DNA of 37,539 nucleotides, taken from NCBI GenBank assembly GCA_013298105.1, contig JAAFJK010000328.1, positions 1 to 37,539 of the forward strand. The letters run 5' to 3'. Every line of letters begins with the position of its first letter. Positions within the stretch are counted from its first letter, which is position 1. The position numbers and the translations under genes are program-made. The DNA comes from Cytophagales bacterium (GTDB taxonomy: Bacteria > Bacteroidota > Bacteroidia > Cytophagales > Microscillaceae). The notes under the pieces are model-generated. The model saw only the letters and a list, made by a program, of their open reading frames with translations. It was not told the origin of the DNA and did not search any database. This document shows positions 1,644 to 37,539 of the stretch, piece after piece.

Positions 1644-1664
1644 AACCTGAAACAACTGAAACAG

Positions 1665-1700
1665 CAGGCTGGAAGCCTGTTCTACAGAATATTCCGCAAT
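1665..1700. repeat. Orphan fragment of the CAGGCTGGAAGCCTG palindromic repeat
   Basis: These 36 bases match the right half of the 87-bp units at 13936-14196 (AGGCTGGAAGCCT palindrome, GTTCTAC, then ATATTCCGCAA), after which the match is lost. No terminal inverted repeat or target duplication remains, so it reads as a degraded partial copy. It sits between the preceding stop codon and the promoter of the SCO gene. Confidence 0.75.
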
Positions 1701-1715
1701 TATCAAAGAATCAAA

Positions 1716-1747
1716 TTTGCTTTAGTCAAAGAAACAAGCTAATTTTG
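1716..1747 (+). promoter_or_regulatory. Promoter of the SCO-family gene
   Basis: TTTG (1716-1719), 20 nt, TAATTTTG (1740-1747): an excellent match to the Bacteroidota consensus. The ATG at 1753 begins 5 nt after the -7 box, which implies a leaderless or nearly leaderless mRNA. Confidence 0.65.
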
Positions 1748-1752
1748 GGGCT

Positions 1753-2439: not shown

Positions 2440-2446
2440 AAACGCC

Positions 2447-2474
2447 CTTGCCTGCCCGTGCTGTATATGGGCAG
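2447..2474 (+). terminator. Hairpin containing a CTTGCCTGCC word, after the SCO gene
   Basis: CTTGCCTGCC at 2447-2456 leads into a hairpin in which CTGCCC (2452-2457) pairs with GGGCAG (2469-2474) across an 11-nt loop. It lies 8 bases after the stop codon. There is no strong T tract, so terminator activity is a guess from position. Confidence 0.4.
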
Positions 2475-2512
2475 ATAATACTGCACAATTACTTTGTTGA
2501 ATTTCCAAAACA

Positions 2513-3442
2513 ATGGAATACTTAAATTTTGTCTTAGGCGCGTTCTTTTCGGCGTGTTTGGTAATCATTTTGCGGTTATTTTCGCGTTATGAAGTGCCTG
2601 TTTTTCCTGCTGTAGTCGGCAACTACCTTACCTGCGTGGTGATAGGTTTGTTGATAGATGTTGGACAAGCTCCTGTAGGCACGAATGCGCCGACACTTAC
2701 GCTTTTGGGGTTTTCGGTAGCTTTGGGTGCTATGTTTATAGTTACGTTTTATATGATGGGACTTTCTACAGAGGCTGTGGGCGTTACCATCACGACTGTA
2801 TTTGTAAAAATATCGATGGTTATTCCTATCTTGTTTAGCCTATTTATTTTACAAAATTCTAAAAAAGTCTTTGATTTTTGGAACTATGCAGGGCTTGTCT
2901 TGGCGGGTGTAGCTATCGTAGCAAGTTCTTGGAAGAATGCGCCTCCTGCTACTGATGCGCCTACTAAAAAAGCCAATTTGAGCCTTTTTGCTTTGGCATT
3001 GCCTTTTTTGGTGTTTGCGTTCAGTGGTGTGATTGATACTTCTATCAATGCCTTGAATGAGCAATACGCACGCCCAGAAAGCCCCACAGCCTTGCCCATC
3101 TTGATTTTTGCGGCGGCAGGAAGTTGGGGAATTTTAATCTTATTTTTTCAATTTTTTAAAGATGGCTATGTTCCACCTTTTCGCGCCTTGATATGGGGCA
3201 TAGTGTTGGGTACACCCAATTTTTTTTCGCTTTATTTTATGGTCAAGTCTTTGTCGGACTTTGGAAATAATGGCGCATTATTTTTCCCACTTTTCAATAT
3301 AGCCATTATTTTGTATTCTGCACTGGGTGGGTGGCTACTTTTTAAAGAAAAACTTTCAAACTTGAATCGCCTCGGTGTGCTTTTGGCATTATTTGCTATA
3401 GGTATGATAGCGTACCAAGAGTTTTTTTTTATTAAATTTTAA
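2513..3442 (+). CDS. EamA/DMT-family membrane transporter
   Basis: 309 residues, almost entirely hydrophobic, with about ten predicted membrane helices in two repeated halves, the layout of drug/metabolite transporters of the EamA type. The N-terminus (MEYLNFVLGAFFSACLVIIL) is the first helix. The second half contains FAFSGVIDTSINALNE and ends with a GGWLLFKEKLSNLNRLGVLL segment typical of the last EamA helix pair, where the KE near the end is well conserved. The substrate cannot be read from the sequence. It is 73 bases downstream of the SCO gene on the same strand but separated by a hairpin. Confidence 0.85.
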   Translation: MEYLNFVLGAFFSACLVIILRLFSRYEVPVFPAVVGNYLTCVVIGLLIDVGQAPVGTNAPTLTLLGFSVALGAMFIVTFYMMGLSTEAVGVTITTVFVKISMVIPILFSLFILQNSKKVFDFWNYAGLVLAGVAIVASSWKNAPPATDAPTKKANLSLFALALPFLVFAFSGVIDTSINALNEQYARPESPTALPILIFAAAGSWGILILFFQFFKDGYVPPFRALIWGIVLGTPNFFSLYFMVKSLSDFGNNGALFFPLFNIAIILYSALGGWLLFKEKLSNLNRLGVLLALFAIGMIAYQEFFFIKF

Positions 3443-3527
3443 TAATCCTTATACGTATATTCAAAAAAAAGGTTGTAATTTGCGAGATAGTTTTTTCAAA
3501 ACAATCAAAATAAATTTTATCTCATAA

Positions 3528-5519
3528 ATGTATCGCCTCTTTTTGTCTGTCAATCTGATAAGTTGGCTGTTGCTACTTGCTACGCGCTTGTTGGCATGGG
3601 CAGGCTTTGTACGCATAGAAGGTGATGCTTGGAATTTTTACTTGAAAGGGCTTTTGTTGAATTTTTATCTGCTGTTGCTTTATTTTTATTACCAAGCAAA
3701 GATGCACGAAAGCGATAAAAACAGCCTCGTAGAGCGTTTGGGTAAGTTATTTGTAGTAGGGCTGAGTACAACTATAGTAGATTTTGCCCTTCACATGGTG
3801 GTAGTGTATTTCAAACCTTACAAAGAAGTAGGTGAGATATTATATCACGCCAGTGTGGGAGTGGGTATGGTTTTTCTTACACAGGCATATATGCTTTGGA
3901 AGTATATGATTCTGCAACCAAAGACTGAAAAAATAGTAAAACAATGGCATCTGTTTGAATATGTGTTATTGATAAGTCTGCTATTCAATTTTTTTGAGTT
4001 TAGTTTTGATGATGTGCCGTTTCTTTTGGCTATGTTGGTTATTTTGGGGGTGGCATCACCTTTTGCGTTTCATTTGCGGTGGGTGGCTTATTTGAACTCG
4101 AAAGAAAAATGGCAGAGCATTTTTTTCTTGTCATTCATTGTTATTTTTTCGTATTATTTTTTTTATACAGTAGTACAACACACCCAAAATGTATATTATA
4201 CGAATCTCATGCACAGCGTATATGTGCTGACGGTGTTGGTTTTTGTACTTTTTTATGGAATTTTCTCAGTCTTGGTTATCTTATTCAACTTGCCTACCTC
4301 GTCTGTATTTGAGCAAAAATTAGAGGAAATTACAGGTTTTCAGCGTCTGGTAATGGTTTTGCAAAATGGAGAAAAAGAAGAACAAATTTATGAAGCCTTG
4401 ATAGACAGCACTATGCGGGCAGTAGAAGCTGATGCAGGCTGGGTAGAGATACAAGATACACAAGGCAATATCAAAATAAGTGTATTTTCGCAAATTGAGC
4501 TTGCCTACATTCAACAAATCAAAGGCGACTTACCTGCCAACCGATTCCAACATCAACGCGCAAGAGATAGCAAAGATGCCCCCGTCATGGGCATATATGC
4601 GTCTATGCTCAATATTCCCCTTGCCTACAATGAGGACTACATAGGCGCACTCATCCTGCTCAAGAAAGAACCCGAAACACTGGGAGATGAGCAAAAACAG
4701 GCGGTTTATACATTCACGAGGCAGGCAAGTATTTCTATCAAAAACTTGCGCCTTTTTCACGAAGCCCTCGAAACAGAACGCTACAAAGAAGAAGCTAAAA
4801 TCGCGCGACAAATTCAACAAAACCTCCTGCCTACCAACCTGCGCTTTACGGAAGGGGTAAAAATAGGGGCTATCTACAGTCCTGCTTCGGAAGTGGGAGG
4901 CGACTATTATGATACTTATCCCATCAGTCCCACGCGCCTCATGCTGATAGTGAGTGATGTATCGGGCAAAGGCACCAATGCGGCATTTTATATGGCGCAA
5001 ATGAAAGGTATTTTCCAAAGTCTGGCACAGCTGAACTGCTCACTCACAGAGTTTTTGCAATACACCAACCGCGCTTTGAGTAATTGCCTACCCAAAAGCT
5101 CTTTTATTACGGCAAGTATTTTAATCATTGACACAGATACACATACTATAGAGATAGCTCAAGCGGGACATTGCCCACTTTTGCGCTATGATGCCAAGCG
5201 AAAACACACTTACTACTTGCCTACACAGGGCTTGGGGTTTGGGATATTGCGCAATAATACTTTTTCACAACACATTGATATACAAAGTATTGTGTATCAA
5301 AAAGGAGATGTGTTTGTGCTTTATACTGATGGGATAGTAGATGGGCGAAATCCTACTCAAGAGGAATATGGCTACGACAGATTGCTTGCCTGCGTACAGG
5401 CACATCATGAAGAAACGCCCCAAGATTTATTGCAAAAAATCCAAACTGACTGGACTTTATTTGCCCAAGATACGCCCCAATATGACGATTATACCGCGCT
5501 CACATTGAAGGTAATATAA
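3528..5519 (+). CDS. Membrane-anchored PP2C/SpoIIE-type serine phosphatase with GAF-like domain
   Basis: 663 residues. Residues 1-265 form about eight membrane helices; about 270-420 form a GAF-like sensory region; about 435-663 is a PP2C phosphatase of the SpoIIE/RsbU class. Seen motifs: ARQIQQNLLPT (the usual entry to the domain), SEVGGDYYD (metal-binding aspartate), VSDVSGKGTNAAFYMAQMKG, LYTDGIVDGRN and the final DDYTALTLKV. Relatives dephosphorylate anti-sigma-factor antagonists or other signalling proteins in response to a sensory domain. No partner kinase or antagonist gene is adjacent, so the pathway is unknown. Confidence 0.9.
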   Translation: MYRLFLSVNLISWLLLLATRLLAWAGFVRIEGDAWNFYLKGLLLNFYLLLLYFYYQAKMHESDKNSLVERLGKLFVVGLSTTIVDFALHMVVVYFKPYKEVGEILYHASVGVGMVFLTQAYMLWKYMILQPKTEKIVKQWHLFEYVLLISLLFNFFEFSFDDVPFLLAMLVILGVASPFAFHLRWVAYLNSKEKWQSIFFLSFIVIFSYYFFYTVVQHTQNVYYTNLMHSVYVLTVLVFVLFYGIFSVLVILFNLPTSSVFEQKLEEITGFQRLVMVLQNGEKEEQIYEALIDSTMRAVEADAGWVEIQDTQGNIKISVFSQIELAYIQQIKGDLPANRFQHQRARDSKDAPVMGIYASMLNIPLAYNEDYIGALILLKKEPETLGDEQKQAVYTFTRQASISIKNLRLFHEALETERYKEEAKIARQIQQNLLPTNLRFTEGVKIGAIYSPASEVGGDYYDTYPISPTRLMLIVSDVSGKGTNAAFYMAQMKGIFQSLAQLNCSLTEFLQYTNRALSNCLPKSSFITASILIIDTDTHTIEIAQAGHCPLLRYDAKRKHTYYLPTQGLGFGILRNNTFSQHIDIQSIVYQKGDVFVLYTDGIVDGRNPTQEEYGYDRLLACVQAHHEETPQDLLQKIQTDWTLFAQDTPQYDDYTALTLKVI

Positions 5520-5533
5520 ATCCTGAGTGATTG

Positions 5534-5689
5534 GGAACGAGTAAAAAATAACTTAGACATTTTGCTAATCTTTTGTGTTTATACTTTGTTGCAATATTCA
5601 TTACAAAACACCGCTTTGCGCTTCTATTGCGCCTCGTCTAAACCCAAAATATCGCACAAAATCTGACCATCTTATTTTTTACTCGTTCC
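5534..5689. repeat. 156-bp inverted-repeat element (MITE-like)
   Basis: GGAACGAGTAAAAAATAA at 5534-5551 is repeated exactly in inverted orientation at 5672-5689. A looser inner match (GACATTTTG against CAAAATCTG) extends the arms. The interior codes for nothing. No target duplication is visible. It could be an old miniature transposon or a structured intergenic repeat. Confidence 0.65.
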
Positions 5690-5699
5690 TTATTTTTGA

Positions 5700-5738
5700 A
5701 AATTTGTAGCACAGGCATCTTGTCTATGCTACAAATTT
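5700..5738 (+). terminator. Intergenic hairpin before the TraB-type gene
   Basis: AAATTTGTAGCA (5700-5711) pairs with TGCTACAAATTT (5727-5738), a 12-bp perfect stem with a 15-nt loop. It lies between the phosphatase gene and the TraB-type gene, so it may end phosphatase transcription, though no clean T tract follows at once. Confidence 0.4.
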
Positions 5739-5785
5739 GGATTATAGGCAAGTTTTATTTATTTTTGGAAAAATAAAATAAAACT

Positions 5786-8700
5786 ATGCTGATACGCGCT
5801 TTACTTGTCTGTTTTTACTTTTTTATAGCCATTTTTTATCCACTTTTTGCCCAACAAGTAGATAAATCTAAATATGCCTTGCTTTGGGAGATTAGCGGGA
5901 AAGATTTACCCAAACCCACCTATATATTTGGCTCTATGCACTTGCCTGATGCGCGAGTGTTTGAGCTTTCAGACTCAGTGATGGTGCTGTTAGATGCGTG
6001 TGAAGCCTTTGCCGCAGAGGTGGATTTGGACAGTGCCATGACTATGTCAGATGATATATTACAAAAACAAGACGAGTTTTATCTCTATGGTACAGAGTAT
6101 GGCTTGGACTTAAAACTATACGAAAAAAAAGCAGAAATCACAACAGAAATTACAACAGACATTGTACCTGAACCTAAATCTGACAAAAAGCCCGAACCTG
6201 AAACCAAGAAAAGGAAAAAACGAAAAAAAGCAAAAAAAGAAGTTACTGAAAAAAAAGGACTGCCCAATCCTTTTGAGCAGGAACTCCCACGCACGCGCCA
6301 AAATGACAAGACCACTTTTTTAGATTCGTACCTTGCCCACAAAGCCAAAACACATGGCAAAACTATCTATGGACTCGAAGTCCTCGAACAACACATGAAT
6401 ATGTACGGCGGAAGTATGGGTAAAAACAAAAAGAAAGATGCTAATTCCGAATTTGATAGCCTGCAACCCATGCAACTCTATGACAAAATGGTGGAATATT
6501 ATCGGTCGGGCGATTTGGAGAAAGTAGCCAAATTCTCGGAAGTGCTGGAAGGCGACAGCATCATGAATCTGCGCAACTATATCATGGTAAACAGCATTTT
6601 GCGCATTACCAAAAAGCAAACACTTTTCAGTGTCATGGGTTGTGCGCACCTCATAGGAGAGGAAGGCGTGGTAAATATTTTCAGAAAGAAAGGCTACCAA
6701 GTCCGCATAGTTACGCCCCAATTTACGCAAGGCGACCCCGATAAATACATTTTCAATTCGCCTCAAACGCCCGTAAATTGGTACGAAAACAAGTATGTAC
6801 CAGAAGGCTACGCCCTCGAAACACCCTTCAAACCTACCCAAAATTCGTACTTTGGACTGCGCATGAATATCCTCAATCCTTGGGAGCATAAGGGCGAGTT
6901 TGTGAATGTTTTTGATGTATTCACAGGGTGCTTTTATGCCTACAACTGCCACCCGCAAGATTCTACAAGCCAAGCAACCAATTTACAAGAACTTCTAAAA
7001 GAAATAGACGGCAAATTGATAACCCAAAAGCCCTTCGAGGCAGGCAAGGCACAGGGCATCGAGTATTTGATTTACAATAAAAGCGACACTTTGCAAGGGA
7101 TTCGAGCGCGCATTTTGGAGGCACAAGGCAATCAATACACGCTGATAGCCTTGACCAAAATCTCCGCACTTTATGAACCACATATAGCGCGTTTTTTTGA
7201 TTCTTTCAAGCTGATGCCTATAGACACCACTATCAAAGTTTGGGAAGACAAGGCGGGGGCTTTTGCTACTGAATTTTATAACTTGCCTGCCCAAAAATCC
7301 CAAAAAACAACGCTGGAAGTTGAATCTATCCACCACAGGCAATACACGCACAGTTACCGCACCCCGCACGAACTTGTGATGTATCGTGATTTGATGCAAG
7401 GCGAGCCGTTACAAAGTGATTCTATTATGTTCAAAGGCATTGAATTGTATATCAAAGAGAAAATTGATACCGCTTATACCAAAGCCAGCACTACTTTTCA
7501 GGGCTACCCGAGCCAGACTTTTGCGGTGCGGGCAGGCAAGGACAGTATCCGCATAAAATCTTACCTGCGTGGGAATCGCCATTATATCATTGCCGAGATA
7601 CAGCCTACCGCCAAAGCATGGGAAACATTCCGTTTTTTGCCTTTTCAGCCGTATAGTTTAGAGAAAAAAGACTTCAAAAAGGCGGGAATCAGCCTCATGA
7701 TGCCTGCCGTAAAACATTATGAAAAGCTCGACAGCTACCGTCCAGACCTCTTTGCACATACTTACAAATACCAAAGTACAGAACCTAATACAGGCGTGAG
7801 CTTTTCGGTAGAAGCACTGAAATATGGTAAATATACTTACTTCACACACGAAGACAGCCTGAAGCAGTGCATCAAAACCCGCTACATCACTGAAAAAGAT
7901 ACTACCTTGCCTACCCAAGCCGCCTATACGCTTTTCAAAAATAAACACGCCAATACCTACAAAATCCTGCAATCTTACTATAAGCCTGAAGGCGTTTATA
8001 CGTTACAGATGGAATTGCCGAAAGAGCTTTTCGAGCCTGCGCGGATAGACGTTTTTCTGAATAGCTTGACTTTCCTGCCCGACTCGAATCAAGTCGTTTT
8101 AGATATTTTTAAGCCTAAGTCCGCGCTACTTTTGGCGGATTTGCAGTCAAAAGATGCCACTGTATTTCAACAGGCAAAAGAAGCCTTGCCCAATTATGCC
8201 TTCACTGAAAGTGATAAAAACGCGCTCATGCGCTTGCTTGACAAGCCATTTGCAGACGATTCTACAGAAAGTTATACGCCTGCAGTCGCGCTTGTGTTGT
8301 GGGAACATCTCCAGACTATTTTGCGCAAAAATACCACCCCGCAAGACCTCGATTTATTGAGTGCGTATTGTTTGCAAGATACTTTTCAAGCCCCCAAATA
8401 TGCGACTATCAAAGTAGAAAACGTATTAAAGCATTTTGTCAAGCAAAAAACGCAGGCAAGTTTAGACTTTTTTTTGGAGGTACTAAAGGCAAAACCCGAT
8501 ACAGAAACTACCAAAGAAATGATAGTGGATTCGCTGGCATTGCTTGAAATCAATTATCAAAAATACCTTGCCTACCCAGACCGCAAAGCGTTTCAAAGCC
8601 TCGCGCTGAATGCTTCAGAGCGGTTCTTGTGGGCAAATGACACAATTACGCACCCACTTATACTGAAAAACTTGCCTACCCTATATAAAATCATGGCGCA

Positions 8701-9672: not shown

Positions 9673-10521
9673 TTACTCAGGCAATAAAATATTGTCAATC
9701 AATCTTATTTCCCCCAAATAACCCGCTATACAAAGTGCTATCCGCGAGGTATCGGCAATGGTTTGGACAGGCTGTAGTGTTTCGGAGTGTACGATTTCAA
9801 AGTATTCGAGGCGAATGGGCGTACTTTCAAAAAAGTCTGTAATACGACTGCGCACTATAGAGAAATCTTTTTGCTCTTGTTGGATAAGGTCGCGTGCCAA
9901 AAAGAGGGCTTGCGGTAGCAAAACCGCGTGTTTGCGCTGTTCGGGTGTGAGGCGCAGATTGCGCGAAGAAAGAGCCAAGCCATCTTCTTCTCGGATAGTA
10001 GGACACATGATAAACTCAAGGTCAAACGACAAATCACGCACCAAGCTCTCTATGATACGGCATTGCTGAAGGTCTTTTTGTCCAAAATAAGCGCGGTCGG
10101 GTTGTACGATATGAAAAAGTTTGCTGACCACGATGCCCACTCCGTTAAAATGCCCTGGTCTGTGCGCACCTTCCATCACTTGCTCAAGTGCGCCAAAGTC
10201 CATTCGAAGCGTAGGCTTCTCCCCATACATCGTGCGGTCGTCTGGCAAAAACAAGTATAAATTTGGATAAGGCGCAAGAAGATTGATGTCTTTTTCAAAA
10301 TGTCGAGGATATTTATCAAAGTCTTGAGTATTGTTGAACTGTAGCGGATTCACAAAAATACTACAAATTACCAAGTCGTTTTCTTTGACAGCCTGCTCGA
10401 TGAGCGAAAGATGTCCTTCGTGCAATGCACCCATAGTAGGCACAAAGCCAATAGTCTTGCCTGCCATACGCGACTCGCGCAGGTAAGTTTTTAGTGCGGG
10501 AATTTGGTCAAAGAGCAACAT
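9673..10521 (-). CDS. panC: Pantoate--beta-alanine ligase (pantothenate synthetase)
   Basis: 282 residues, the normal family length. It joins pantoate and beta-alanine using ATP, the last step of pantothenate (vitamin B5) synthesis. Seen motifs: FVPTMGALHEGHLSLI (HxGH nucleotide-binding motif, near residues 27-42), SIFVNPLQF, HRPGHFNGVGIVVSKLFHIV, AYFGQKDLQQ, and ALSSRNLRL (KMSKS-like SSRN). It starts at 10521 with a good promoter about 31 nt upstream and is divergent from the glycogen-synthase-like gene. The stop at 9673 is followed, after about 85 bases, by mobile element A. Confidence 0.97.
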   Translation of the reverse strand: MLLFDQIPALKTYLRESRMAGKTIGFVPTMGALHEGHLSLIEQAVKENDLVICSIFVNPLQFNNTQDFDKYPRHFEKDINLLAPYPNLYLFLPDDRTMYGEKPTLRMDFGALEQVMEGAHRPGHFNGVGIVVSKLFHIVQPDRAYFGQKDLQQCRIIESLVRDLSFDLEFIMCPTIREEDGLALSSRNLRLTPEQRKHAVLLPQALFLARDLIQQEQKDFSIVRSRITDFFESTPIRLEYFEIVHSETLQPVQTIADTSRIALCIAGYLGEIRLIDNILLPE

Positions 10522-10552
10522 AATAATAAGGTGCTGTTTAGAGCTAAAAACA

Positions 10553-10584
10553 CAAAGTTATATACTTTTGCGAAAAATACACAA
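10553..10584 (-). promoter_or_regulatory. Promoter of panC
   Basis: On the minus strand TTG (10582-10584), 21 nt, TAACTTTG (10553-10560). The ATG of panC follows after a leader of about 31 nt. Confidence 0.6.
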
Positions 10585-10602
10585 CTATTGAAAAAAAATA
10601 AC

Positions 10603-10610
10603 TAATTTTG
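10603..10610 (+). promoter_or_regulatory. -7 box (TAATTTTG) upstream of the glycogen-synthase-like gene
   Basis: TAATTTTG matches the Bacteroidota -7 consensus and leaves a 31-nt leader before the ATG at 10642. The expected -33 TTG at the right spacing is not evident, so this is weaker than its divergent partner. Confidence 0.45.
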
Positions 10611-10641
10611 CACGTTAGTTTTAAGAACGTTCATTCCTTTT

Positions 10642-11466
10642 ATGTCAAAATTGCGAGTTTTGTATGTAGCAAGTGAAATTGCTCCATTCCTCCAAATCAC
10701 AGAAATAGCAGAAATAGTGCGCCAAATACCGCAAGCTATGCAAGAATATGGTATGGAAATACGTATTATTGTCCCCAGATATGGCACTATCCTTGAGCGT
10801 AAGCACCGCCTGCATGAAGTAGTCCGCCTCTCAGGTATCAACATCACAGTAGGTGATGACGAAAAACCGCTACTCATCAAAGTCGCTTCTGTACCTCAAG
10901 CAAAGCTACAGGTATATTTTATAGACAATGACGACTACTTTCATCGAAAAGCCGATTGGAGTGATGCAAACGGCAAGTTCTGTACTGACAATGACGAAAG
11001 AGCTATCTTTTTCTGCAAAGGCGTGTTGGAAACTGTGAAGAAGCTCGGCTGGTCGCCCCACATTATCCATTGCCACGACTGGATGAGTGCCATTATCCCT
11101 TTGTACCTAAAAACTTCTTACCGCAAAGACCCCGTTTTTAATCACAGCAAATGCCTCTACAGTGTGTATGACAATCACTTTGAGCATAATTTTGATGTCC
11201 AAAACCTGACCTCCAAAGTCTTGATGCAAGACATCGATGCTGAAGAAATTGCGCACCTCCAAGAAGCAAACTATCAAGGACTCACGCGCCTTGCTATGGA
11301 GTACGCAGATATGATAGTGGCTGGGCAGGCAAGTTACAATGCGCCTACCTCGATGCTTTTAGACGAATATGCCAGCAAAAAAGAAATTATACAAGTATCT
11401 AAACCAGATGAATTTCATGACATTTACCACCAAGTCCTCACAGCCGAGCTTGTCAGTGTGTTGTAA
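10642..11466 (+). CDS. Glycogen/starch-synthase-like protein, N-terminal (GT5) domain only
   Basis: 274 residues resembling only the first half of GlgA: LRVLYVASEIAPF at the start, GMEIRIIVPRYG, VYFIDNDDYFHR, DNDERAIFFCKGVLE, and IIHCHDWMSAIIPLYLK. Full synthases are about 480 residues and bind ADP-glucose with the K-T/S-G-G-L loop near the N-terminus plus a C-terminal GT-B domain. Here the loop position reads LQITEIAEIV, and the C-terminal domain is absent, so normal synthase activity is unlikely. From memory, such half-length proteins beside panC and a DUF4270 gene recur in Bacteroidota; that suggests a conserved but unassigned role. It is divergent from panC and overlaps the next gene. Confidence 0.8.
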   Translation: MSKLRVLYVASEIAPFLQITEIAEIVRQIPQAMQEYGMEIRIIVPRYGTILERKHRLHEVVRLSGINITVGDDEKPLLIKVASVPQAKLQVYFIDNDDYFHRKADWSDANGKFCTDNDERAIFFCKGVLETVKKLGWSPHIIHCHDWMSAIIPLYLKTSYRKDPVFNHSKCLYSVYDNHFEHNFDVQNLTSKVLMQDIDAEEIAHLQEANYQGLTRLAMEYADMIVAGQASYNAPTSMLLDEYASKKEIIQVSKPDEFHDIYHQVLTAELVSVL

Positions 11467-12826
11467 ACAGCTCCTTGCCTGCCTTTGGATAGGCGTATGC
11501 CTCTTTTTTTGTACATCTTGCGACCAAAACTCCATCATTGGGAGAGGCATCATCAATAAATCTGAAGCCAGCCTCATAGAAACGGATACTTTCACAGTAG
11601 AAGCAAGCACAGTTTTAGCTGATAGCGTGCGTACAGACAGAGGAGTAACAGATTATCTGCTGGCGGGGCAATACCAAGACCCTACTTTTGGCAAGATTAC
11701 AGCCACGAGCTTTTTTAGGATTGTGCCAGGAAGTAACCCCGTAAAAATTCCTGATGATACATCAGTCGATTCACAAACCATTGATTCTTTGGTACTTGTG
11801 CTGGGGCTTCAAAAGTTTGCAGGCGACCCACTTACAGTCTATCCAAATAAAGACGTAACACAAACCTTGCTTATCCACCGTTTGACTGAAGAAGTAACAA
11901 ACAGTATCAAATATTATAGCTTCAACGAAATAGCCTACGACCCTACGCCACTTGCCAGCGTAACTTTTAATGTAGCGAAATTGAAAGAAGATAAGTTTTT
12001 GCGTGTGAATCTTACGCAACTTGCGCCTGCATTCTCAACTGAAATTATTAACCTTGTCAAAGATGGTGTAACCACTTCAGAGGTTTTCCAAACTATCCTC
12101 AAAGGATTTGCGTTAGTACCACCTCCAAACAGCAACAACAATGTCATAGCTTTTGCAAACGACAACAGTACAGCTTTAGTAGTCCATTACACCAAAACCA
12201 AGGTATTGGAAAATGGCGCAATCCCAGACAGAAGAACCCCTGCAGTAATAAACTTGTTTCCTGGTATCAGTTTTCATGGCGTAAAGGCAGATAGGACAGG
12301 TACACCTCTTGCGACTGCCATGCCCTGGACTCCGCTACTGGCTAAAAATATGAACGGCAATGCCTATATGCAAGCCTGCTTGGGCTTTTATACAAGGCTT
12401 ACCTTTCCTACCCTGAAGAACTTAAAAAAATTGGGCAATGTGCTTATCAATAAAACCATTTTGCACATAAAGCCTGCACTCAACTCTACGGAAGGCTATG
12501 CAGTGCCTGCAAATTTATTTTTTTATGAATCAGGCGCAAATAGTAAATTTGCCTACCAAACCATCAACAATGAAAGACGCGAAAAACTCATAAGCCTTGA
12601 CGGTACAAATAACCCTTTTGTGGGCTATGACACACGCGATGAAGAATATGAAGTTTATCTTAGCAGACATTGCCACGCGCTCATGTCAGGCGATAAGACA
12701 AATGAAGGCATAATAGTCGTACCCGCCAACAACAGCTTTACCGTAAACCGAGCCGTACTCAGTAACACGCTCACAAATACGCCCAACAAGATAAAACTGC
12801 GTGTATTTTATACTATTTTCAAATAA
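11417..12826 (+). CDS. DUF4270-family lipoprotein
   Basis: 469 residues from the ATG at 11417. The start was chosen because it gives a lipoprotein signal: a basic N-terminus, hydrophobic WIGVCLFFCTSC, and lipobox cysteine C35 followed by D and Q. ATGs at 11369 and 11408 are also in frame. The sequence after it (IIGRGIINKSEASLIETDTF) and the body, rich in beta strands with DSLVLVLGL and LFFYESG, match the DUF4270 family, cell-envelope proteins of unknown function found in Bacteroidota. The gene begins inside the last 50 bases of the glycogen-synthase-like gene, implying translational coupling. Confidence 0.8.
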   Translation: MTFTTKSSQPSLSVCCKQLLACLWIGVCLFFCTSCDQNSIIGRGIINKSEASLIETDTFTVEASTVLADSVRTDRGVTDYLLAGQYQDPTFGKITATSFFRIVPGSNPVKIPDDTSVDSQTIDSLVLVLGLQKFAGDPLTVYPNKDVTQTLLIHRLTEEVTNSIKYYSFNEIAYDPTPLASVTFNVAKLKEDKFLRVNLTQLAPAFSTEIINLVKDGVTTSEVFQTILKGFALVPPPNSNNNVIAFANDNSTALVVHYTKTKVLENGAIPDRRTPAVINLFPGISFHGVKADRTGTPLATAMPWTPLLAKNMNGNAYMQACLGFYTRLTFPTLKNLKKLGNVLINKTILHIKPALNSTEGYAVPANLFFYESGANSKFAYQTINNERREKLISLDGTNNPFVGYDTRDEEYEVYLSRHCHALMSGDKTNEGIIVVPANNSFTVNRAVLSNTLTNTPNKIKLRVFYTIFK

Positions 12827-12854
12827 TTTTGGGAATTAAAGAAGTGTGGATTAT

Positions 12855-12895
12855 ATTTGGGGTGTATTTCAATGAACTTGGAATACACCCCAAAT
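12855..12895 (+). terminator. 14-bp hairpin between the DUF4270 gene and the oxygenase gene
   Basis: ATTTGGGGTGTATT (12855-12868) pairs perfectly with AATACACCCCAAAT (12882-12895) over a 13-nt loop, 29 bases after the DUF4270 stop and 21 bases before the oxygenase ATG. It may end the upstream transcript, or act in the leader of the downstream gene; only a short T-rich stretch (TTGTATTTTAT) follows. Confidence 0.5.
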
Positions 12896-12916
12896 TTGTA
12901 TTTTATCCCCTCAAAT

Positions 12917-13891
12917 ATGCAAGACCAATCTCTTTTTGACACTATCCCTTCGCTTGACCTCGCGGACTTCTTATCAGGAGATGCGGCTTTGAAGCAAAAA
13001 TTTGTAGCCGAACTCGGACAAGCCTTTGGACAAATTGGCTTCGTGGCTATCCGCAATCACGGACTCAGTGATGACTTGGTAGCGAAACTTTATGCAAACT
13101 TCATGCAGTTTTTTCAACAACCTGACGAAGTAAAAATGCAAAGTCATGTAGCTGGACTTGCAGGGCAACGTGGCTACACCCCGCGTGGACAAGAACACGC
13201 TAAGGGGCGCAATGTGGGCGATTTGAAAGAGTTTTATCAGCTTGGGCAAACTGTATTAGATACAGATGCTATCAAATCTGAATATCCTGACAATGTTTTT
13301 CCTGCCAATCTGCCTGACTTTCAGCCTACTGTTTTGGAGGCATACCGCACACTTGAAACGGCAGGCAAGCACCTTTTGAGTGCCATCGCGCTGTTTTTGG
13401 GATTAGAAGAAACGTATTTTGAACCTAAAGTCCATAACGGAAACAGCATTTTGCGCGGGTTGCATTATTACCCTATCACGAATCCTGACGAAGTGCCAGA
13501 TGGCGCTGTACGTGCCGCCGCACATGGCGACATCAATCTTATCACGCTCCTCATGGGTGCAAGTGCAGATGGCTTAGAGATTTTGCGTAAAGATGACAAA
13601 TGGATAGCTGTAACGGCTTTGCCTGAACAAATCGTAGTGAATGTAGGCGATATGCTCGAACGCCTTACAAACAATACGCTCAAATCTACTATCCACCGCG
13701 TAGTAAATCCACCACGCGAAAAAATGGGCAATTCGCGTTATTCTATCCCGTTTTTTATGCACCCAAGAAGCGAAATGGATTTGACTTGCCTGCCCTCCTG
13801 TATTTCTGAAGCGAATCCTAAACAATATCCTGACACGACTGCGGGGGCTTTTTTGAATGAACGCCTCGCAGAAATAGGATTGAAGAAATAA
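12917..13891 (+). CDS. Isopenicillin-N-synthase-like 2-oxoglutarate/Fe(II) oxygenase
   Basis: 324 residues from ATG 12917, chosen because DTIPSLDLADF is the usual family start; an ATG at 12857 lies inside the upstream hairpin. The double-stranded beta-helix iron site is complete: H203 and D205 in AAHGDINLITLL, H260 in STIHRVV, and the co-substrate-binding R274/S276 in SRYSIPFF. N-terminal DIOX_N features (GFVAIRNHGL) are present. These soluble enzymes hydroxylate, desaturate or cyclise small molecules using 2-oxoglutarate and O2. Substrate unknown. It carries two CTTGCCTRCC words. Confidence 0.9.
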   Translation: MQDQSLFDTIPSLDLADFLSGDAALKQKFVAELGQAFGQIGFVAIRNHGLSDDLVAKLYANFMQFFQQPDEVKMQSHVAGLAGQRGYTPRGQEHAKGRNVGDLKEFYQLGQTVLDTDAIKSEYPDNVFPANLPDFQPTVLEAYRTLETAGKHLLSAIALFLGLEETYFEPKVHNGNSILRGLHYYPITNPDEVPDGAVRAAAHGDINLITLLMGASADGLEILRKDDKWIAVTALPEQIVVNVGDMLERLTNNTLKSTIHRVVNPPREKMGNSRYSIPFFMHPRSEMDLTCLPSCISEANPKQYPDTTAGAFLNERLAEIGLKK

Positions 13892-13907
13892 GGTGTTTGG
13901 TAATTAT

Positions 13908-14202
13908 GGTTCTTAAAAAATTATTGTGCAGGCAAAACTGTAGAACAGGCTTCCAGCCTGTTGTTTCAAATAATAAACAGGCTGGAAGTCTGTTCTACAG
14001 AATATTCCGCAATAACTTTCGAAACTGTAGAACAGGCTTCCAGCCTGTTGTTTCAAATAATAAACAGGCTGGAAGCCTGTTCTACAGAATATTCCGCAAT
14101 AACTTTCGAAACTGTAGAACAGGCTTCCAGCCTGTTGTTTCAAATAATAAACAGGCTGGAAGTCTGTTCTACAGAATATTCCGCAATAACTTTCGCAGAA
14201 CC
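13908..14202. mobile_element. Non-autonomous mobile element copy B (295 bp, 8-bp target duplication)
   Basis: The left end 13908-13929 begins GGTTCTTAAAAAATTATTG and the right end 14181-14202 ends CGCAATAACTTTCGCAGAACC minus one base, the same termini as element A. GTAATTAT flanks it on both sides (13900-13907 and 14203-14210), an 8-bp target duplication. The interior is a three-copy 87-bp repeat array quite unlike the single large hairpin of copy A. It separates the oxygenase gene from its probable terminator. Confidence 0.85.
13936..14196. repeat. Three tandem 87-bp units, each a long hairpin
   Basis: Units start at 13936, 14023 and 14110 and differ by only a few bases. In each, GTAGAACAGGCTTCCAGCCT plus GTT pairs with its inverted copy across a short AT-rich loop, giving a stem of about 23 bp, and each arm contains its own AGGCT..AGCCT palindrome. 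The unit ends with a copy of the element's right terminus (CCGCAATAACTTTCG). Open frames through it (repeating RTGFQPVV or AGSLFYRIF) are artefacts of the repeat. Confidence 0.95.
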
Positions 14203-14217
14203 GTAATTATTTATAAG

Positions 14218-14257
14218 ACTGCTTGTTTTTAACGTTGTCTATGAGAAAACAAGCAGT
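14218..14257 (+). terminator. Terminator for the oxygenase gene
   Basis: ACTGCTTGTTTT (14218-14229) pairs perfectly with AAAACAAGCAGT (14246-14257), followed by GTTTTTTGG: a 12-bp stem with a T run. It lies just beyond mobile element B, which probably inserted between the gene and its terminator. Confidence 0.7.
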
Positions 14258-14292
14258 GTTTTTTGGTACGTTGAGCGTGGCAAAAATGAAAA

Positions 14293-14317
14293 GCCAAACT
14301 ATGTCAAATAGTTTGGC
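14293..14317 (-). terminator. Terminator for the minus-strand secreted protein gene
   Basis: GCCAAACTA (14293-14301) pairs with TAGTTTGGC (14309-14317) with a 7-nt loop. Read on the minus strand the stem is followed by TTTTCATTTTT, as expected for a terminator 23 bases past the stop at 14340. Confidence 0.7.
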
Positions 14318-14339
14318 GATATAAAAATATTATTTTAAT

Positions 14340-14771
14340 TTATCGTTTGAAACTCAACACTGCACCACCGCAGTAGGGTTTCTCTGAAAATTTGAATACA
14401 AGGTGATACATACTTGTCGCGCTACATTTGTACGAAAGCTGTGAGTAGTATTTGCCTGTACCACTTGCGTAACTTGAAGCCAATACTTTATTGTTGGAGT
14501 CCATAAGCACTACATAAAAGTTCTTAGATGAGGGCAAACCATTCTCCAAGTTCAGTACATAGTTGTTGTTTTTGGTAAAGATGTACGAGAATTTTATTTC
14601 TTTTTTCGCGCCATCTAAGCCATCAACTGTATAGCTTTTCAAGAAGGTATAGCCGTCTTGAATGCTTTTGAGTGCCTTGTCTTTGAAAGGTTTTGCATCA
14701 CATTCTTGGGGCTTCATGGTCGTGTTGCCTGTGAAAAGCAAAGTAGCTAATATAAAATTTAGAATTAGCAT
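14340..14771 (-). CDS. Small secreted hypothetical protein
   Basis: 143 residues with a short signal peptide (MLILNFILATLLFTGNTT). The mature part has three cysteines (QECDAKPF, SYKCSATS, KPYCGGAV) and a beta-rich pattern. No recognised family. It is a single transcription unit with its own -7 box and terminator, flanked by mobile element B on one side and bshC on the other. Confidence 0.7.
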   Translation of the reverse strand: MLILNFILATLLFTGNTTMKPQECDAKPFKDKALKSIQDGYTFLKSYTVDGLDGAKKEIKFSYIFTKNNNYVLNLENGLPSSKNFYVVLMDSNNKVLASSYASGTGKYYSQLSYKCSATSMYHLVFKFSEKPYCGGAVLSFKR

Positions 14772-33437: not shown

Positions 33438-33947
33438 CTAACGGATTGTGTGGTGTGTCCTAAAACCGTTCATAGAGCCTGCAATGAGCATATTTTGTAA
33501 CCAATTTTGATGGTATTTAAATCCATTAAGTTCCTCAAATCTACTATTTTTCCCCATTTTTTTGACAGTTTGTTTTTGAAAAGGCTTAAAATTATAAATC
33601 ATTGCCCACGCCCTCATCTTTTGTTGTGCAGTAGCTAAATGCCCATGAAAGTAGCGAGTTTGGTATAAATATCTGTCTAAATCATTCATGGGTCTGTCTA
33701 CCTGATTAGAGGTTCTATAAGCTTCGGGATATTTATAGGCAGTGGCAAAACGCGCCTCTTTGTCTATGATGTCTTGTACCTTGCCTAAAATAGCAGGATG
33801 GTTTTGTAAATGCAATTTTGCCCAAATAAGGGTTTCTGTTAATCCCTTCTTGAAAGCTACTGCATTGGGTTCAGCATAGTTATTCCATAACATTGTGCCT
33901 AATTCGTGGTATTTTTCTTTTAATTTCTTGCCTATTTCTCTAATCTT
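33438..33947 (-). pseudogene. C-terminal remnant of a transposase, cut by the IS4 element
   Basis: The minus-strand frame is open from the IS border (33947, KIREIGKKLKEKYHELGTML) to the stop at 33438, about 169 residues; an internal ATG at 33893 gives 151. The end (TSNQVDRPMNDLDRYLYQT, AWAMIYNFKPF, RFEELNGFKYHQNWLQNML, GFRTHHTIR) resembles the C-terminus of a DDE transposase family I recall from cyanobacteria and Planctomycetes, where V-D-R-x-M and Y-H-x-N-W-L-Q-N recur. The catalytic N-terminal half is missing. The transposase assignment is from memory and only moderately sure. Confidence 0.55.
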
Positions 33948-35407
33948 CTGATAACTGTGGAAATCTTTTTTTTAACTTTTTTTAGTTTTTAGATATTGGA
34001 CAAGTTCATCAATTTGTTCGTGTGTAATATCATTTTCTTTCATCCAGCTGGTTACTTCTTGAAAATTAGCGAGTTTTTCTAACCCTTTTAGGAGGAAAAA
34101 GAGGGTTACTTTTCCTTTTGAGAGTGCTAATTTACACAACATCTTTGCTGTTGGATGCTCCTTGAGTGCTGTTTCCATCTCTTTAAAGTACCCGACTAGA
34201 AAAAAGGCGATGGCTAATAAATTGGCTATTGAATTGAAATCACGCACTTGGATCGTTTCCCAGCCTAAATTTTGTTTCAAAAAACGAAACACGATTTCTA
34301 TTTTGAAGCGCAAAATATAGGCACAATACACTGATTTGGCTTCTTCCAAGTTTGTAATATTGCGGTTAGTTATCAATAACATAGGGTGGTCAAAGATATT
34401 ATTGCCTCCTTGTTTTAAGGTAATACGCACTACTTGGTAGGTCATTTCTCCCAATTTCAAGGTATCCCATTCTACTACGCAAGTAACTTTTGTATATTTT
34501 TTACCTTGGATAGTCAAGGTGTCAAGTAAATATTCGCCTTTATGGGCAAACTTTTTGTCTACCAATTTTTGATAGGCGATTTTTTTTGACTCCTTACCTG
34601 TTTTAGGGGTGTATAATGTTTTGGTTTCATCTGAATCACGTGATAATTTTAAGCGAATCACAAATTGGTCTTTCAAATGATGAAGGTAACTAAAAATATC
34701 TTCACTGTCATATTCTCTATCCAAAATATGGCAGATGGTACGGTCTGGGTTTTCTTTTTTCAAAATTTCACTACAACGTTTGGCTTGGGCTTTGAATAAA
34801 ATTACATTGTTGATATGTTGATTGTCTTTCACTAATTGTTGGGTTTCGGCACTTTGTTCCGACAATTTCGCGAGGGCTTCTTGCGACACAAAAGTGGGCA
34901 TCGCATTGCTATATACTTGATGGTCAAGTAGATGAACCTGTTGCTCCTGCGGATTGATGGCAACAGAATTTAAGGTCTTGTAACCACGAACCACTTGTTT
35001 TTTAAGGGATAACACCTGACCCAAATTTTCCAACTCGGAAGATTCAGGCTTGCGTATATCACAACCATCATGCAAAACATATACTTCAATGGAACTACCC
35101 AAGTCTGCAAGTGTTCGCTCCTGAACACAGTCTAAAACTATGTCTTGGCTCAAAGTATTCACTTGCTTACCTGATACCAAGCCACTCAATTTTTCATACT
35201 CGTTCTTATCTTCCGAAGAAGAGTAGATATGTAAGTTATTGTTAGTCAATATTTTATCTGTTAACAGTTCAATGTTTTTTTTACGCGGATGTCTTTGTAT
35301 CTCGAACAAAGCGGGGATAAATAATCTGTAAGGCTCATAATTAAGGTTTTTTTGGCACTAAGATAAGAATTTTTCAATAACATACAAAAGATTTCCACAG
35401 TTATCAG
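33948..35407. mobile_element. IS4-family insertion sequence, 1460 bp, perfect 22-bp terminal inverted repeats
   Basis: CTGATAACTGTGGAAATCTT plus TT at 33948-33969 is exactly inverted at 35386-35407. It contains one transposase gene filling nearly the whole element. No direct duplication is seen: ..CTAATCTT precedes and TATTTTTTAT follows. Intact ends and frame suggest it is recent and may be active; the missing duplication suggests an adjacent deletion or recombination after insertion. Confidence 0.9.
33972..35309 (-). CDS. IS4-family DDE transposase
   Basis: 445 residues from TTG 35309. The DDE residues are visible: D81 in YVLHDGCDIRK, D197 in HILDREYDSEDIF, and E338 within the IS4 signature Y-(2)-R-(3)-E-(6)-K (Y331, R334, E338, K345, in YILRFKIEIVFRFLKQ). 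The start is uncertain: the frame stays open for 15 more codons (NYEPYRLFIPALFEIQRHPR reads like protein) without an ATG, so a non-ATG start farther upstream, or a frameshift from the ATG at 35343, is possible. It cuts and pastes the surrounding element. Confidence 0.93.
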   Translation of the reverse strand: MFEIQRHPRKKNIELLTDKILTNNNLHIYSSSEDKNEYEKLSGLVSGKQVNTLSQDIVLDCVQERTLADLGSSIEVYVLHDGCDIRKPESSELENLGQVLSLKKQVVRGYKTLNSVAINPQEQQVHLLDHQVYSNAMPTFVSQEALAKLSEQSAETQQLVKDNQHINNVILFKAQAKRCSEILKKENPDRTICHILDREYDSEDIFSYLHHLKDQFVIRLKLSRDSDETKTLYTPKTGKESKKIAYQKLVDKKFAHKGEYLLDTLTIQGKKYTKVTCVVEWDTLKLGEMTYQVVRITLKQGGNNIFDHPMLLITNRNITNLEEAKSVYCAYILRFKIEIVFRFLKQNLGWETIQVRDFNSIANLLAIAFFLVGYFKEMETALKEHPTAKMLCKLALSKGKVTLFFLLKGLEKLANFQEVTSWMKENDITHEQIDELVQYLKTKKS

Positions 35408-35498
35408 TATTTTTTATTACATCGATTTGTTGCTCTATTGTTACCTTCATTAAAAGTATTTGCTTTTGTAATTCAGTAAGTTCCTCTTGTTTATACAT
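35358..35498 (-). pseudogene. Start of an operon gene truncated by the IS4 element
   Basis: The ATG at 35498 overlaps the stop of the membrane protein gene (ATGTATAA arrangement), a sign of translational coupling. The frame encodes MYKQEELTELQKQILLMKVT and IEQQIDVIKN before the IS end at 35407, then runs 16 codons into the IS to a stop. Only a helical N-terminus survives. It is not in frame with the transposase remnant at 33438-33947, so I treat the two as separate. Confidence 0.6.
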
Positions 35499-36786
35499 GG
35501 CGCACCTCCTTTCCTGCTATCGGGTTTCCGAATGAATCGAAAAGACTTGTTTTGGGTGGGGCTTCCCTGCCCTCCACTTTCTTACGCACCTTAGACAAAG
35601 TGCTAAAGTTTTTCTTGTAAGCCTTGCTTAATATGCGGGTGTCTGTTATGCCTTGCCTGTATGCTTCTTCAAGTGTGGCAGGCAAGTCTTGCTGTAAGTC
35701 TTGGGGCAAGTCTTGGGGCAAGTCTTGCTGTAAGTCTTGGGGCAAGTCTTGCTTGCCTGCCGTAAATCCTATGGGCTTTTTGGGCAAGTCTTGCTGTAAG
35801 TCTTGGTTCAAGACTTGGTAAGTCTTAGGCAAGTCTTGCGGGCTGTTTAGCAAGTCTTTGAAGATGTTGGGCGCGTGGCTTGTCAAGATTTGTATGGCTT
35901 CGTGCCAAGCGTTGGTTTCTTTGTCCCTAAATTTCTTGGGGTCTTCGGCTGTATGGTAGGCATACCAAATTAAGAACCAATTACAGAGTATAAGCAAGGC
36001 TTCTGTAATGCCTGCGAATATTACCCAAAACCATATATTGAAGCCCTGTGTGCGGGCGGTTTCTTCGCGCTGGGTGGTGTGGTTGGCGGTGGCGGTCTTG
36101 ATGAGCTGGTCGCGGTCGCGCTCAAATTTGGCGATGCGGTCTTGGTAGGCGCGTATGTTATCCGCTACATTTTTGTCATAGATATTTATCTGCCCCTGCC
36201 ACGATACAGACTTTCTGAACTCGTTTAGGTCTTGGCGTGTCTGCTCTATGCGGGTTTGGTAGGCAAGGCGCGTACTATCGGTGCGGGTGGTGTGCTGGGC
36301 TTCCTGCTGTTGGGCGGTGCGGTCTATGTGTATGTACGCCTCTTTTGCACCCTCCAAACTCGTATATACACTGCCTGCCAAAAATACGCCTGCACCCAAA
36401 AAAAGTATGGCGGTTACTTCCGAAAAGCCTTTGCTGTAGGCGCGTGTGAACGCTATGTCGAAGGTTTGGTTCTTGCCTGCCTCGATGCCTGTAAGCAATA
36501 GGAGGGCTAATAAAATGGCAACTTCCTTGCCTACGTTATCAGCGAATCTGTAATAAAAATAGGATATAGCCGTAACGATGCTCACTACACTTAGCACCCA
36601 CAAAAGTATGTGGGCAAGTCTTTTTAGTGGCTTAAATTCTTGTGCAAAAGGCTTTTCTGCCAACTTCTCTATGGATCGGTCGGTTTCTTGTTGCACCCAT
36701 CGGGCGGTCTCCAATTTTTTGATGTTTAATTTTTTTTCGGGTGGCGTTTGGATTTCTCGATTATCCTGCCTATCTTTGTATATCAT
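35491..36786 (-). CDS. Four-helix membrane protein with external coiled coil and QDLP repeats
   Basis: 431 residues, no recognised family. Cytoplasmic N-terminus (1-57); membrane helices about 58-79, 88-103, 124-143; a polar helical/coiled-coil region 150-248 (RTAQQQEAQHTTRTDSTRL, FERDRDQLIKTATANH); a fourth helix 250-277; then a cytoplasmic tail with QDLP/QDLQ repeats (316-369) and a final basic helical region (EEAYRQGITDTRILSKAYKK) that looks like a small helix-turn-helix. It is the third gene of a minus-strand operon and is coupled to a gene destroyed by IS4. A mobile-element or phage-linked membrane protein is possible; nothing proves it. Confidence 0.65.
   Translation of the reverse strand: MIYKDRQDNREIQTPPEKKLNIKKLETARWVQQETDRSIEKLAEKPFAQEFKPLKRLAHILLWVLSVVSIVTAISYFYYRFADNVGKEVAILLALLLLTGIEAGKNQTFDIAFTRAYSKGFSEVTAILFLGAGVFLAGSVYTSLEGAKEAYIHIDRTAQQQEAQHTTRTDSTRLAYQTRIEQTRQDLNEFRKSVSWQGQINIYDKNVADNIRAYQDRIAKFERDRDQLIKTATANHTTQREETARTQGFNIWFWVIFAGITEALLILCNWFLIWYAYHTAEDPKKFRDKETNAWHEAIQILTSHAPNIFKDLLNSPQDLPKTYQVLNQDLQQDLPKKPIGFTAGKQDLPQDLQQDLPQDLPQDLQQDLPATLEEAYRQGITDTRILSKAYKKNFSTLSKVRKKVEGREAPPKTSLFDSFGNPIAGKEVRHV
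35680..35841 (-). repeat. In-frame minisatellite encoding QDLP/QDLQ repeats
   Basis: About nine units of 12-15 bp built on CAAGTCTTG (plus strand: GGCAAGTCTTGGGGCAAGTC) encode residues 316-369 of the membrane protein. Units are close to identical, so slippage can change copy number without breaking the frame when units are multiples of three. Two exact GGCAGGCAAG/CTTGCCTGCC words lie within it. Confidence 0.85.
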
Positions 36787-36838
36787 ATTTGAAGTTTGGT
36801 TTATAGCATACCTTTTCGCGGGGGTGTGCTTTTTTTGT

Positions 36839-37210
36839 TTAGTACATTCTCAAAATCTTGCCTCTTTCAGAAGTCCTAAGTTCTTCTTTGAGGGTTTCAT
36901 ACAATGCTGTAGCCTTTGCTTTGGCTTCTGCGGGTGGCATATTTTCAGCGTACTGAATCGTAAAACGTGCTATAAAATCACGTTTTGTGCGCTCGTCTTC
37001 TTCGGCTTTTTGAGCTTCGATTTCTTCAGGCGTGGGTTCAGCGTATGGTTGTCTGTGAGTGTCCCATATATTGTATTCATCATCTTCTTCCATTTCGGCT
37101 TCGAGGTTTTGCTTCTCTGTTTCTTTGGCGTATGTGTATCTTACACTTGCTTTAGCCATGACCTCTACTATTTTGTAGATGCCGTTTTCTAAGTTTGCTA
37201 CTATATTCAT
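36839..37210 (-). CDS. Acidic hypothetical protein
   Basis: 123 residues, rich in Glu, Lys and Ala (ETEKQNLEAEMEEDDEYNIW, PTPEEIEAQKAEEDERTKRD), with a helical C-terminal half (PPAEAKAKATALYETLKEEL). No family recognised. Its ATG overlaps the stop of the preceding gene (ATGA), so translation is coupled; ATG at 37159 (MAKASVRYTY) is an alternative start. It is 52 bases upstream of the membrane protein gene. Confidence 0.6.
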   Translation of the reverse strand: MNIVANLENGIYKIVEVMAKASVRYTYAKETEKQNLEAEMEEDDEYNIWDTHRQPYAEPTPEEIEAQKAEEDERTKRDFIARFTIQYAENMPPAEAKAKATALYETLKEELRTSERGKILRMY

Positions 37211-37416
37211 TCCGTTGGTTTGGGCTTTTTAGTTGATTTTTTGGGGGGTGCTGTGGTTTCGGTGTTTGCCTCCGCTTTAGGCTCTGCGGGTGGTTCTTGC
37301 TTTGCTTCAGGCTGTTCTTCTTCAGGCTCTGCGGGTGGTTCGGGTTCTTCTTCTTTGGGCGGGTAATAATAAGGCTCTAATGCCTGCCCGATTTGATGTT
37401 CTTTCTGTTCTTGCAT
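37207..37416 (-). CDS. Small Pro/Glu-rich hypothetical protein
   Basis: 69 residues, low complexity: after MQEQKEHQIGQALEPYYYPP it is almost wholly Pro, Glu, Ala and Lys (EEEPEPPAEPEEEQPEAKQE), ending in a basic KKSTKKPKPTE tail. Likely disordered. It overlaps the next gene by 4 bases (ATGA) and follows the previous stop by 15 bases, so it belongs to the same operon. No function can be assigned. Confidence 0.55.
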   Translation of the reverse strand: MQEQKEHQIGQALEPYYYPPKEEEPEPPAEPEEEQPEAKQEPPAEPKAEANTETTAPPKKSTKKPKPTE

Positions 37417-37431
37417 AGATATAAGAGAGTG

Positions 37432-37539
37432 TTAAAAGATTGCTTCGGGACTTGCAAACCACGATAATAAGGCAAGTATATGTAAAAATAAATGTTCAGC
37501 ATCGATGGTTATACTTTCCAACTCCTCGTGGGCTTTATG
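37432..37539 (-). CDS. C-terminal end of an unidentified protein (5' part outside the window)
   Basis: The minus-strand frame is open from the window edge to TAA at 37432-37434 and ends HLFLHILALLSWFASPEAIF. Thirty-five codons are visible. Spacing of 15 bases to the next gene makes it the first visible member of the minus-strand operon. Confidence 0.45.
   Translation of the reverse strand, partial: HKAHEELESITIDAEHLFLHILALLSWFASPEAIF

Follow-up and report, generated by a model that had tools for sequence, protein, structure and literature searches.

A membrane-protein family with interchangeable C-terminal modules on plasmids and integrative elements of the Cytophagales

The window analysed here, a stretch of 37,539 nucleotides, is an entire contig (JAAFJK010000328.1; G000:C326) of the 810-contig genome of a Cytophagales bacterium (GCA_013298105.1), and our subject is the gene for a 431-residue membrane protein on the minus strand near its right end. 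Five minus-strand frames lie there, as described in an earlier reading made from the sequence alone (hereafter the sequence-only reading). The module is cut off by the end of the contig itself and not by the choice of window, the contig stopping 753 bases upstream of the 431-residue gene. The features are as follows, with IS for insertion sequence, HTH for helix-turn-helix and pI for isoelectric point.

37432–37539, minus strand: cut-off partial frame, last 35 codons, interrupted at the contig end
37207–37416, minus strand: 69-residue Pro/Glu-rich frame (pI 4.66, Glu 25%, Pro 22%)
36839–37210, minus strand: 123-residue acidic frame (pI 4.76)
36805–36830, plus strand: hairpin and T-run, terminator-like for antisense transcripts (in the leader of the 431-residue gene, an A-run and hairpin)
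35491–36786, minus strand: gene of the 431-residue membrane protein, with four predicted membrane helices, a predicted periplasmic helical hairpin, an IGF-motif linker and a C-terminal HTH-like domain
35764–35772, minus strand: IGF motif of the putative cytoplasmic linker, residues 339–341, from the motif count across members
35681–35752, minus strand: 12-base tandem repeat in six copies, coding for a QDLPQDLQ-type linker stretch
35575–35673, minus strand: C-terminal three-helix HTH-like segment, residues 372–404, from sibling alignment and model
35408–35498, minus strand: IS-truncated gene start of about 30 codons; the open frame (46 codons, 35358–35498) ends inside the IS
33948–35407, minus strand: IS with a DDE_Tnp_1 transposase and 18-bp terminal inverted repeats
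33438–33956, minus strand: transposase-like remnant of another family, outside the operon, with a second copy elsewhere in the genome

The tight packing by ATGA or short overlaps proposed in the sequence-only reading holds at two of the four junctions, namely a true ATGA overlap between the 69- and 123-residue frames and an eight-base overlap between the 431-residue gene and the 46-codon frame. It fails at the other two, where a gap of about 15 bases follows the partial frame and a gap of 52 bases, with the hairpin inside it, separates the 123-residue frame from the 431-residue gene. The G+C content of the module is 0.45, a small difference from the 0.41 of the first 33.4 kb.

The family and its variable tails

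Hydropathy places exactly four hydrophobic segments in the 431-residue frame (residues 57–75, 85–103, 124–142 and 255–273), consistent with the four-helix membrane protein of the sequence-only reading, and a loop of 112 residues lies between the third and the fourth. Exactly four segments are likewise found in 38 of the 43 non-redundant members of the family described below, a set that contains one doubtful row (L066, E 1.7e-7). The parts follow one another in the order basic N-terminus, helices 1–3, extramembrane two-helix hairpin, helix 4, variable linker and small C-terminal domain. A full structure model of the window protein, built on a three-row alignment (mean predicted local distance difference test score, pLDDT, 62), renders the predicted periplasmic hairpin as two long helices with block pLDDT up to 95. 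Against the PDB, a Foldseek search with this model returned nothing at E 0.001, and the model's VIA-align Z scores, up to 10.1, are at the level usual for long helices. One structure match in the viral library, A0A8D9CE73, was not accepted as a relative, given an E value of 4.6e-6 but a template-modelling (TM) score of 0.35–0.39.

A single-sequence search with the window protein found relatives in three further genomes of 57 (E 1.1e-46 for G006), and a seven-member profile found matches in 32 of 390 sampled genomes of the order, its own genome counted. Members occur in seven of 11 genomes of the taxonomic family of G034 (Bernardetiaceae, judging from plasmid matches), and in as many as 13 places in a single genome (G150). 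A 24-member profile run on 395 genomes across the phylum returned the window's own genome plus one doubtful match only, in a first look that scored at most four candidates per genome; within this sample, sequence searches suggest a family nearly confined to one order and essentially absent elsewhere. The window protein, itself a row of the family profile (alignment A2), matches that profile over its full length at E 5.1e-115. Four residues are invariant in all 24 aligned members, the window included: E102 and K105 near membrane helix 2, and S139 and S143 near helix 3.

No model of Pfam, NCBIfam or PADLOC matches more than three of the 24 members, and the window protein stays below the cut-off of every one, with DUF2157 (PF09925) scoring 16.2 bits where 32.4 are required; phrog_34645 matches its coiled-coil part only (6.7e-4). 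Searches of 50,697 phage records with three members came back empty, three scans of viral contigs yielded no family match, and in a plasmid collection the window protein and the members at loci L049, L045 and L013 drew no match, the L063 member alone matching plasmids. No description of such a family, nor of plasmids of these bacteria, was recognised in the literature searched. The words "undescribed" and "membrane-linked" of the sequence-only reading are therefore apt for the 431-residue protein, which no model of Pfam, NCBIfam, PHROGs or PADLOC claims. The family to which it belongs is real, unnamed and borne by elements, and shows several mutually independent regularities.

One of these is the linker motif. 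IGF is the commonest tripeptide in the last 40% of the members, present in 26 of 43 where the runner-up reaches 15, and [IV]GF is found there in 27 of 43 (one of these occurrences, in L031, falling within a membrane helix), compared with a mean of 1.75 and a maximum of 6 in 500 rounds of shuffled tails. Short tandem repeats also occur in the linkers of the window protein and L009.

Beyond the linker, the C-terminal module differs between members, being an HTH in some and a four-cysteine finger in others, with the finger pattern in 16 of 43 tails. The L011 tail scores above the HTH_7 cut-off (25.3 against 23.8 bits) and that of L045 slightly under the HTH_23 cut-off; many of the remaining HTHs, together with a KPF motif, were assigned by eye. 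The window tail aligns with the HTHs of its siblings and is modelled as three short helices (pLDDT 86–88 in blocks 21–50 of a tail model, about 72–79 in the full model). From these alignments and models the module appears nucleic-acid-binding-like, and the window protein itself likely contains a DNA-binding domain.

Two variations on this layout deserve mention. At L056:8539–9422 and L058:10424–11316, genes for a stand-alone HTH protein and a small acidic protein come after the family gene, as though the DNA-binding part had become detached. At L047:9369–10571 and L048:2496–3677, members in an apparently chromosomal setting common to two genomes have tails with QLSLGF, which is close to a sliding-clamp motif.

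Neighbouring genes and the leader hairpin

A survey of gene order among the relatives, as suggested in the sequence-only reading, revealed no fixed order and a constant class of neighbours. By Pfam, these are ParA, Rep3, Rep_1, SSB, tyrosine integrases, Toprim primases, DUF5906, a BT4734-like primase and DEAD+Toprim replicases; ParB is also among them. Of 29 family loci, 22 contain one or more of ten such families, against none of 20 control stretches from the same genomes (Fisher p 3e-8), a partly circular count, as the neighbour profiles were seeded from the family loci (near-duplicates L013/L014, L045/L046 and L047/L048 included), and hence a description and not a blind test. Two complete circular Bernardetia plasmids, NZ_CP147016.1 (20,323 bases) and NZ_CP147023.1 (12,893 bases), encode one member each, annotated "hypothetical protein"; on NZ_CP147023.1, a plasmid of Bernardetia sp. 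ABR2-2B, the gene occupies 1937–3133. In several loci an integrase gene directly adjoins the family gene, with end-to-start overlaps in L045, L046, L051, L054 and L063. A tRNA gene at 11622–11696 of L045, about 170 bases past the integrase that follows the family gene, is as expected for an integrated element, and an Rfam scan of six loci found tRNAs only. With its relatives beside integrases, Rep3/Rep_1, ParA/ParB and primases and on two plasmids, the suggestion that the module is part of an integrated element is supported for the membrane protein.

A second candidate membrane-attached protein accompanies the family. In seven of 11 places, a protein with an HTH-like N-terminus, a coiled coil and a C-terminal membrane helix, a layout assigned by eye, shares its contig with a family member. 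On Bernardetia plasmids, such proteins of 191–207 residues with an LLQRQ-type coiled coil adjoin the family (L061:2189–2812, L082:2917–3492 and L083:7468–8049). Their layout resembles that of RocS and pSK1 Par, yet they have no DUF536 match. Their presence supports the view that attachment to the membrane is a theme on these plasmids.

In many family genes an A-run and then a G+C-rich hairpin precede the start codon, with no T-run bar one exception. In the window, the hairpin is, on the plus strand, the terminator-like site with the most pairs in the whole stretch. The pattern is present in 12 of 24 discovery leaders and in one of 193 control genes. It also occurs in eight of 215 other genes of the family loci: one is the second family copy of L061, four are of primase, helicase or replicase type (L011, L056, L063 and L083), and the rest are in L057, L082 and L060 (472 residues, positioned like the L063 gene and not Pfam-scanned). 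Besides the window, A-run and hairpin leaders of family and replication-type genes occur in L011, L045, L049, L054, L056, L060, L061, L063, L082 and L083.

The pattern was defined after the leaders had been seen, and its criteria varied between counts (12/26, 11/24 and 12/24), the step from 26 to 24 leaders reflecting removal of the near-identical L046 and L048; L014 was never listed. Seventeen members left unused served as a hold-out, and six of these have the hairpin (p 7e-7 against control loci), two hold-out members (L093 and L038) looking like near relatives of discovery members. Eleven leaders picked for a visible hairpin were folded, and eight gave z of −3.4 or lower against shuffles; values were weaker in the window (−2.4), L049 (−1.7) and L012 (−1.1). 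On the opposite strand the sequence reads as an intrinsic terminator, and since the upstream gene in the window runs in the same direction as the family gene, an antisense transcript ending at the hairpin is a natural reading. The literature searched held no Bacteroides antisense copy-control paper of use. Repeats near the gene in the G060 pair were examined for a DNA-binding site, and nothing shared could be singled out apart from the leader hairpin.

Membrane tethering and its competitors

Plasmids and integrative elements of the Cytophagales appear little studied, and a protein that recurs on small plasmids and beside replication genes, yet lacks a name in every curated library searched, may well serve a core maintenance function. 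We favour, at a little under even confidence, a role for the 431-residue protein as a polytopic inner-membrane DNA-binding maintenance factor, one that tethers plasmid or integrative-element DNA for replication or segregation. This reading builds on the family itself, the helix count by hydropathy, the motif, the swapped tails, the neighbour class, the complete plasmids and the leader hairpin. A protein that joins a membrane anchor to a swapped DNA-binding-like tail, shares a linker motif across members and lies near replication and partition genes would suit the role of holding element DNA or a replication complex at the membrane.

In the proposed mechanism, a polytopic inner-membrane protein would present a cytoplasmic C-terminal DNA-binding module to an origin, a centromere-like site or a replication complex, and so support replication or segregation. 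The four helices and the periplasmic hairpin might serve oligomerisation or localisation, while a shared partner might bind the flexible linker through its IGF motif. Recognition of the element's own site would fall to the C-terminal HTH or zinc finger, which would explain why this module is swapped between elements. Control of the membrane protein's synthesis may lie with an antisense transcript that terminates at the leader hairpin, and the elements' replication genes may be controlled likewise.

The segregation proteins TubY and RocS (PMC7762940; PMC11500499) join contact with the membrane to DNA binding, as does phi29 p16.7 (PMC4974454) for replication, all considered here as described in excerpts of these sources. 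TubY, of type III plasmid partition, is a plasmid protein with an HTH and a coiled coil that binds both DNA and membranes and is needed for plasmid stability, much as proposed for the family; it differs in that its HTH, of MerR-like type, is N-terminal, in that an amphipathic helix at the C-terminus takes the place of four membrane helices, and in working with TubZ and TubR (PMC7762940, excerpt). RocS and pSK1 Par (DUF536) are likewise segregation proteins in which an HTH and a coiled coil go together with contact to the membrane, but they make that contact through an amphipathic helix and have a cytoplasmic coiled coil and the opposite domain order (PMC11500499, excerpt). DUF536 is absent from the Pfam matches listed for the scanned proteins, the window protein included. 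An integral membrane protein, phi29 p16.7 draws the DNA of a mobile genome to the membrane during replication, although it binds single strands and terminal protein and its host is unrelated (PMC4974454, excerpt). The family would thus be resembling these three in logic, and kinship is not implied.

Several observations weigh against tethering. The window tail has no Pfam and no Foldseek match, and an HTH or finger is not recognisable in L009, L010 and L047. None of the ten neighbour families occurs in seven of the 29 loci (L009, L010, L047, L048, L059, L062 and the window), L047 and L048 appear chromosomal, and the neighbour count has the circularity noted above. Elements with ParAB and Rep3 carry a family member too, which means that the protein is not a simple ParAB substitute.

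The main rival is a membrane-bound one-component transcription regulator, in which the periplasmic hairpin would sense an envelope signal and the HTH or finger would control element genes such as those for excision, replication or its own operon. The parts are those of transmembrane transcription regulators, membrane helices plus a DNA-binding domain, and such proteins are reported to be abundant in Bacteroidota (PMC10269533, excerpt); the separate HTH protein after the family gene in L058 and L056 also suits regulation. The hairpin, however, is modelled as a helical coiled coil without a ligand-type fold, and the linker motif and the replication and partition neighbours, though compatible with regulation, are not predicted by it. 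Zinc-finger tails are not known to be typical of transmembrane transcription regulators. ToxR/CadC-type regulators share with the family the membrane protein with a cytoplasmic DNA-binding domain, whereas its four helices, interchangeable C-terminal module and replication-gene linkage form a layout not described among them in the excerpt at hand (PMC10269533). On balance, we regard regulation as a serious but somewhat unlikely explanation.

Two further roles are improbable, to about the same degree. Many membrane proteins of mobile elements serve in exclusion, immunity or defence, here against other elements or phages, and the several copies per genome, up to the 13 places in G150, would suit such a function, as would the weak PycTM match of one member (E 0.02). 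Yet the window protein matches none of the PADLOC families, three PADLOC models match one member each (best 4.9e-4), and a swapped DNA-binding tail would have no role. A part of the conjugation or excision machinery, for example one that ties the processed element to the membrane ahead of transfer, would account for the adjoining and overlapping integrase genes, but both complete plasmids are typed non-mobilizable and no relaxase was found among 20 neighbour proteins scanned with Pfam, which is not a full survey.

Should tethering prove true, the few known membrane-contacting partition proteins would be joined by a multi-helix anchor whose DNA specificity can be swapped. The leader hairpin common to the family gene and to replication genes suggests a control circuit, and a bolder proposal, which we consider rather doubtful, is a new class of plasmid maintenance system composed of an anchor, an interchangeable DNA reader and IGF docking. 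It would be made together with the replicase under antisense-RNA control through paired leader hairpins, such that one circuit sets both copy number and attachment.

Flanking frames, insertion sequence and minor observations

The sequence-only reading also cast the disordered acidic proteins as partners in the module, and this part is not supported. Among 57 genomes, the 123-residue protein is confined to its own, apart from one weak match with an internal stop (E 0.0027), and a conserved operon of acidic partners is rejected. In the relatives' fetched loci, neither it nor the 69-residue protein matched other frames, and the 69-residue and 46-codon frames had no match at all. As the 69- and 123-residue frames have no homolog, homology offers no proof that either is a gene; these two and the 46-codon frame may be genes.

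Downstream, the IS has its inverted repeats at 33948–33965 and 35390–35407, and its transposase frame (33972–35309) scores above the DDE_Tnp_1 cut-off; it is a single copy in its own assembly. The last gene is truncated by this IS, as the sequence-only reading held in calling it destroyed by IS4, but the sequence past the IS is not its continuation. A broken gene resuming there is rejected, given that target duplication is absent at the junctions and that the far side is the transposase-like remnant. A second, partial copy of this remnant, 99% identical, lies at the end of the genome's contig C352 (L071), and one relative has eight matches.

Contig C236 of the same genome, 4,500 bases long, encodes a Toprim-DEAD replicase whose class is also found on the Bernardetia plasmids. 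No link with the window's replicon is claimed, as the contigs have no end overlap and the 35 partial codons at the contig end bear no resemblance to replicase ends. Relatives of this replicase in G007, G004 and G010 had no family member in the stretches read, and no Rep3 initiator was found in the window's own genome.

Some minor observations concern individual records. On one contig of 15.4 kb (L061), a 4.3-kb direct repeat (1351–5639 and 10159–14447, 99.5%) is accompanied by two copies of the family gene and by replicase ends that have diverged, a sign of tandem elements or of a cointegrate. The 12.9-kb plasmid of L083 has a gene annotated as a phage tail tape measure protein (4861–7344), phage annotation being otherwise absent there. 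A record titled as a Thalassovita sp. metagenome-assembled genome (L081) holds a Cytophagales-type family member with an integrase, and its title is probably a wrong bin label. Lastly, at 13897–14232 of the window lies a frame with three near-identical units NCRTGFQPVVSNNKQAGSLFYRIFRNNFR, whose appearance is that of a short repeat, tandem or dispersed, translated as protein.

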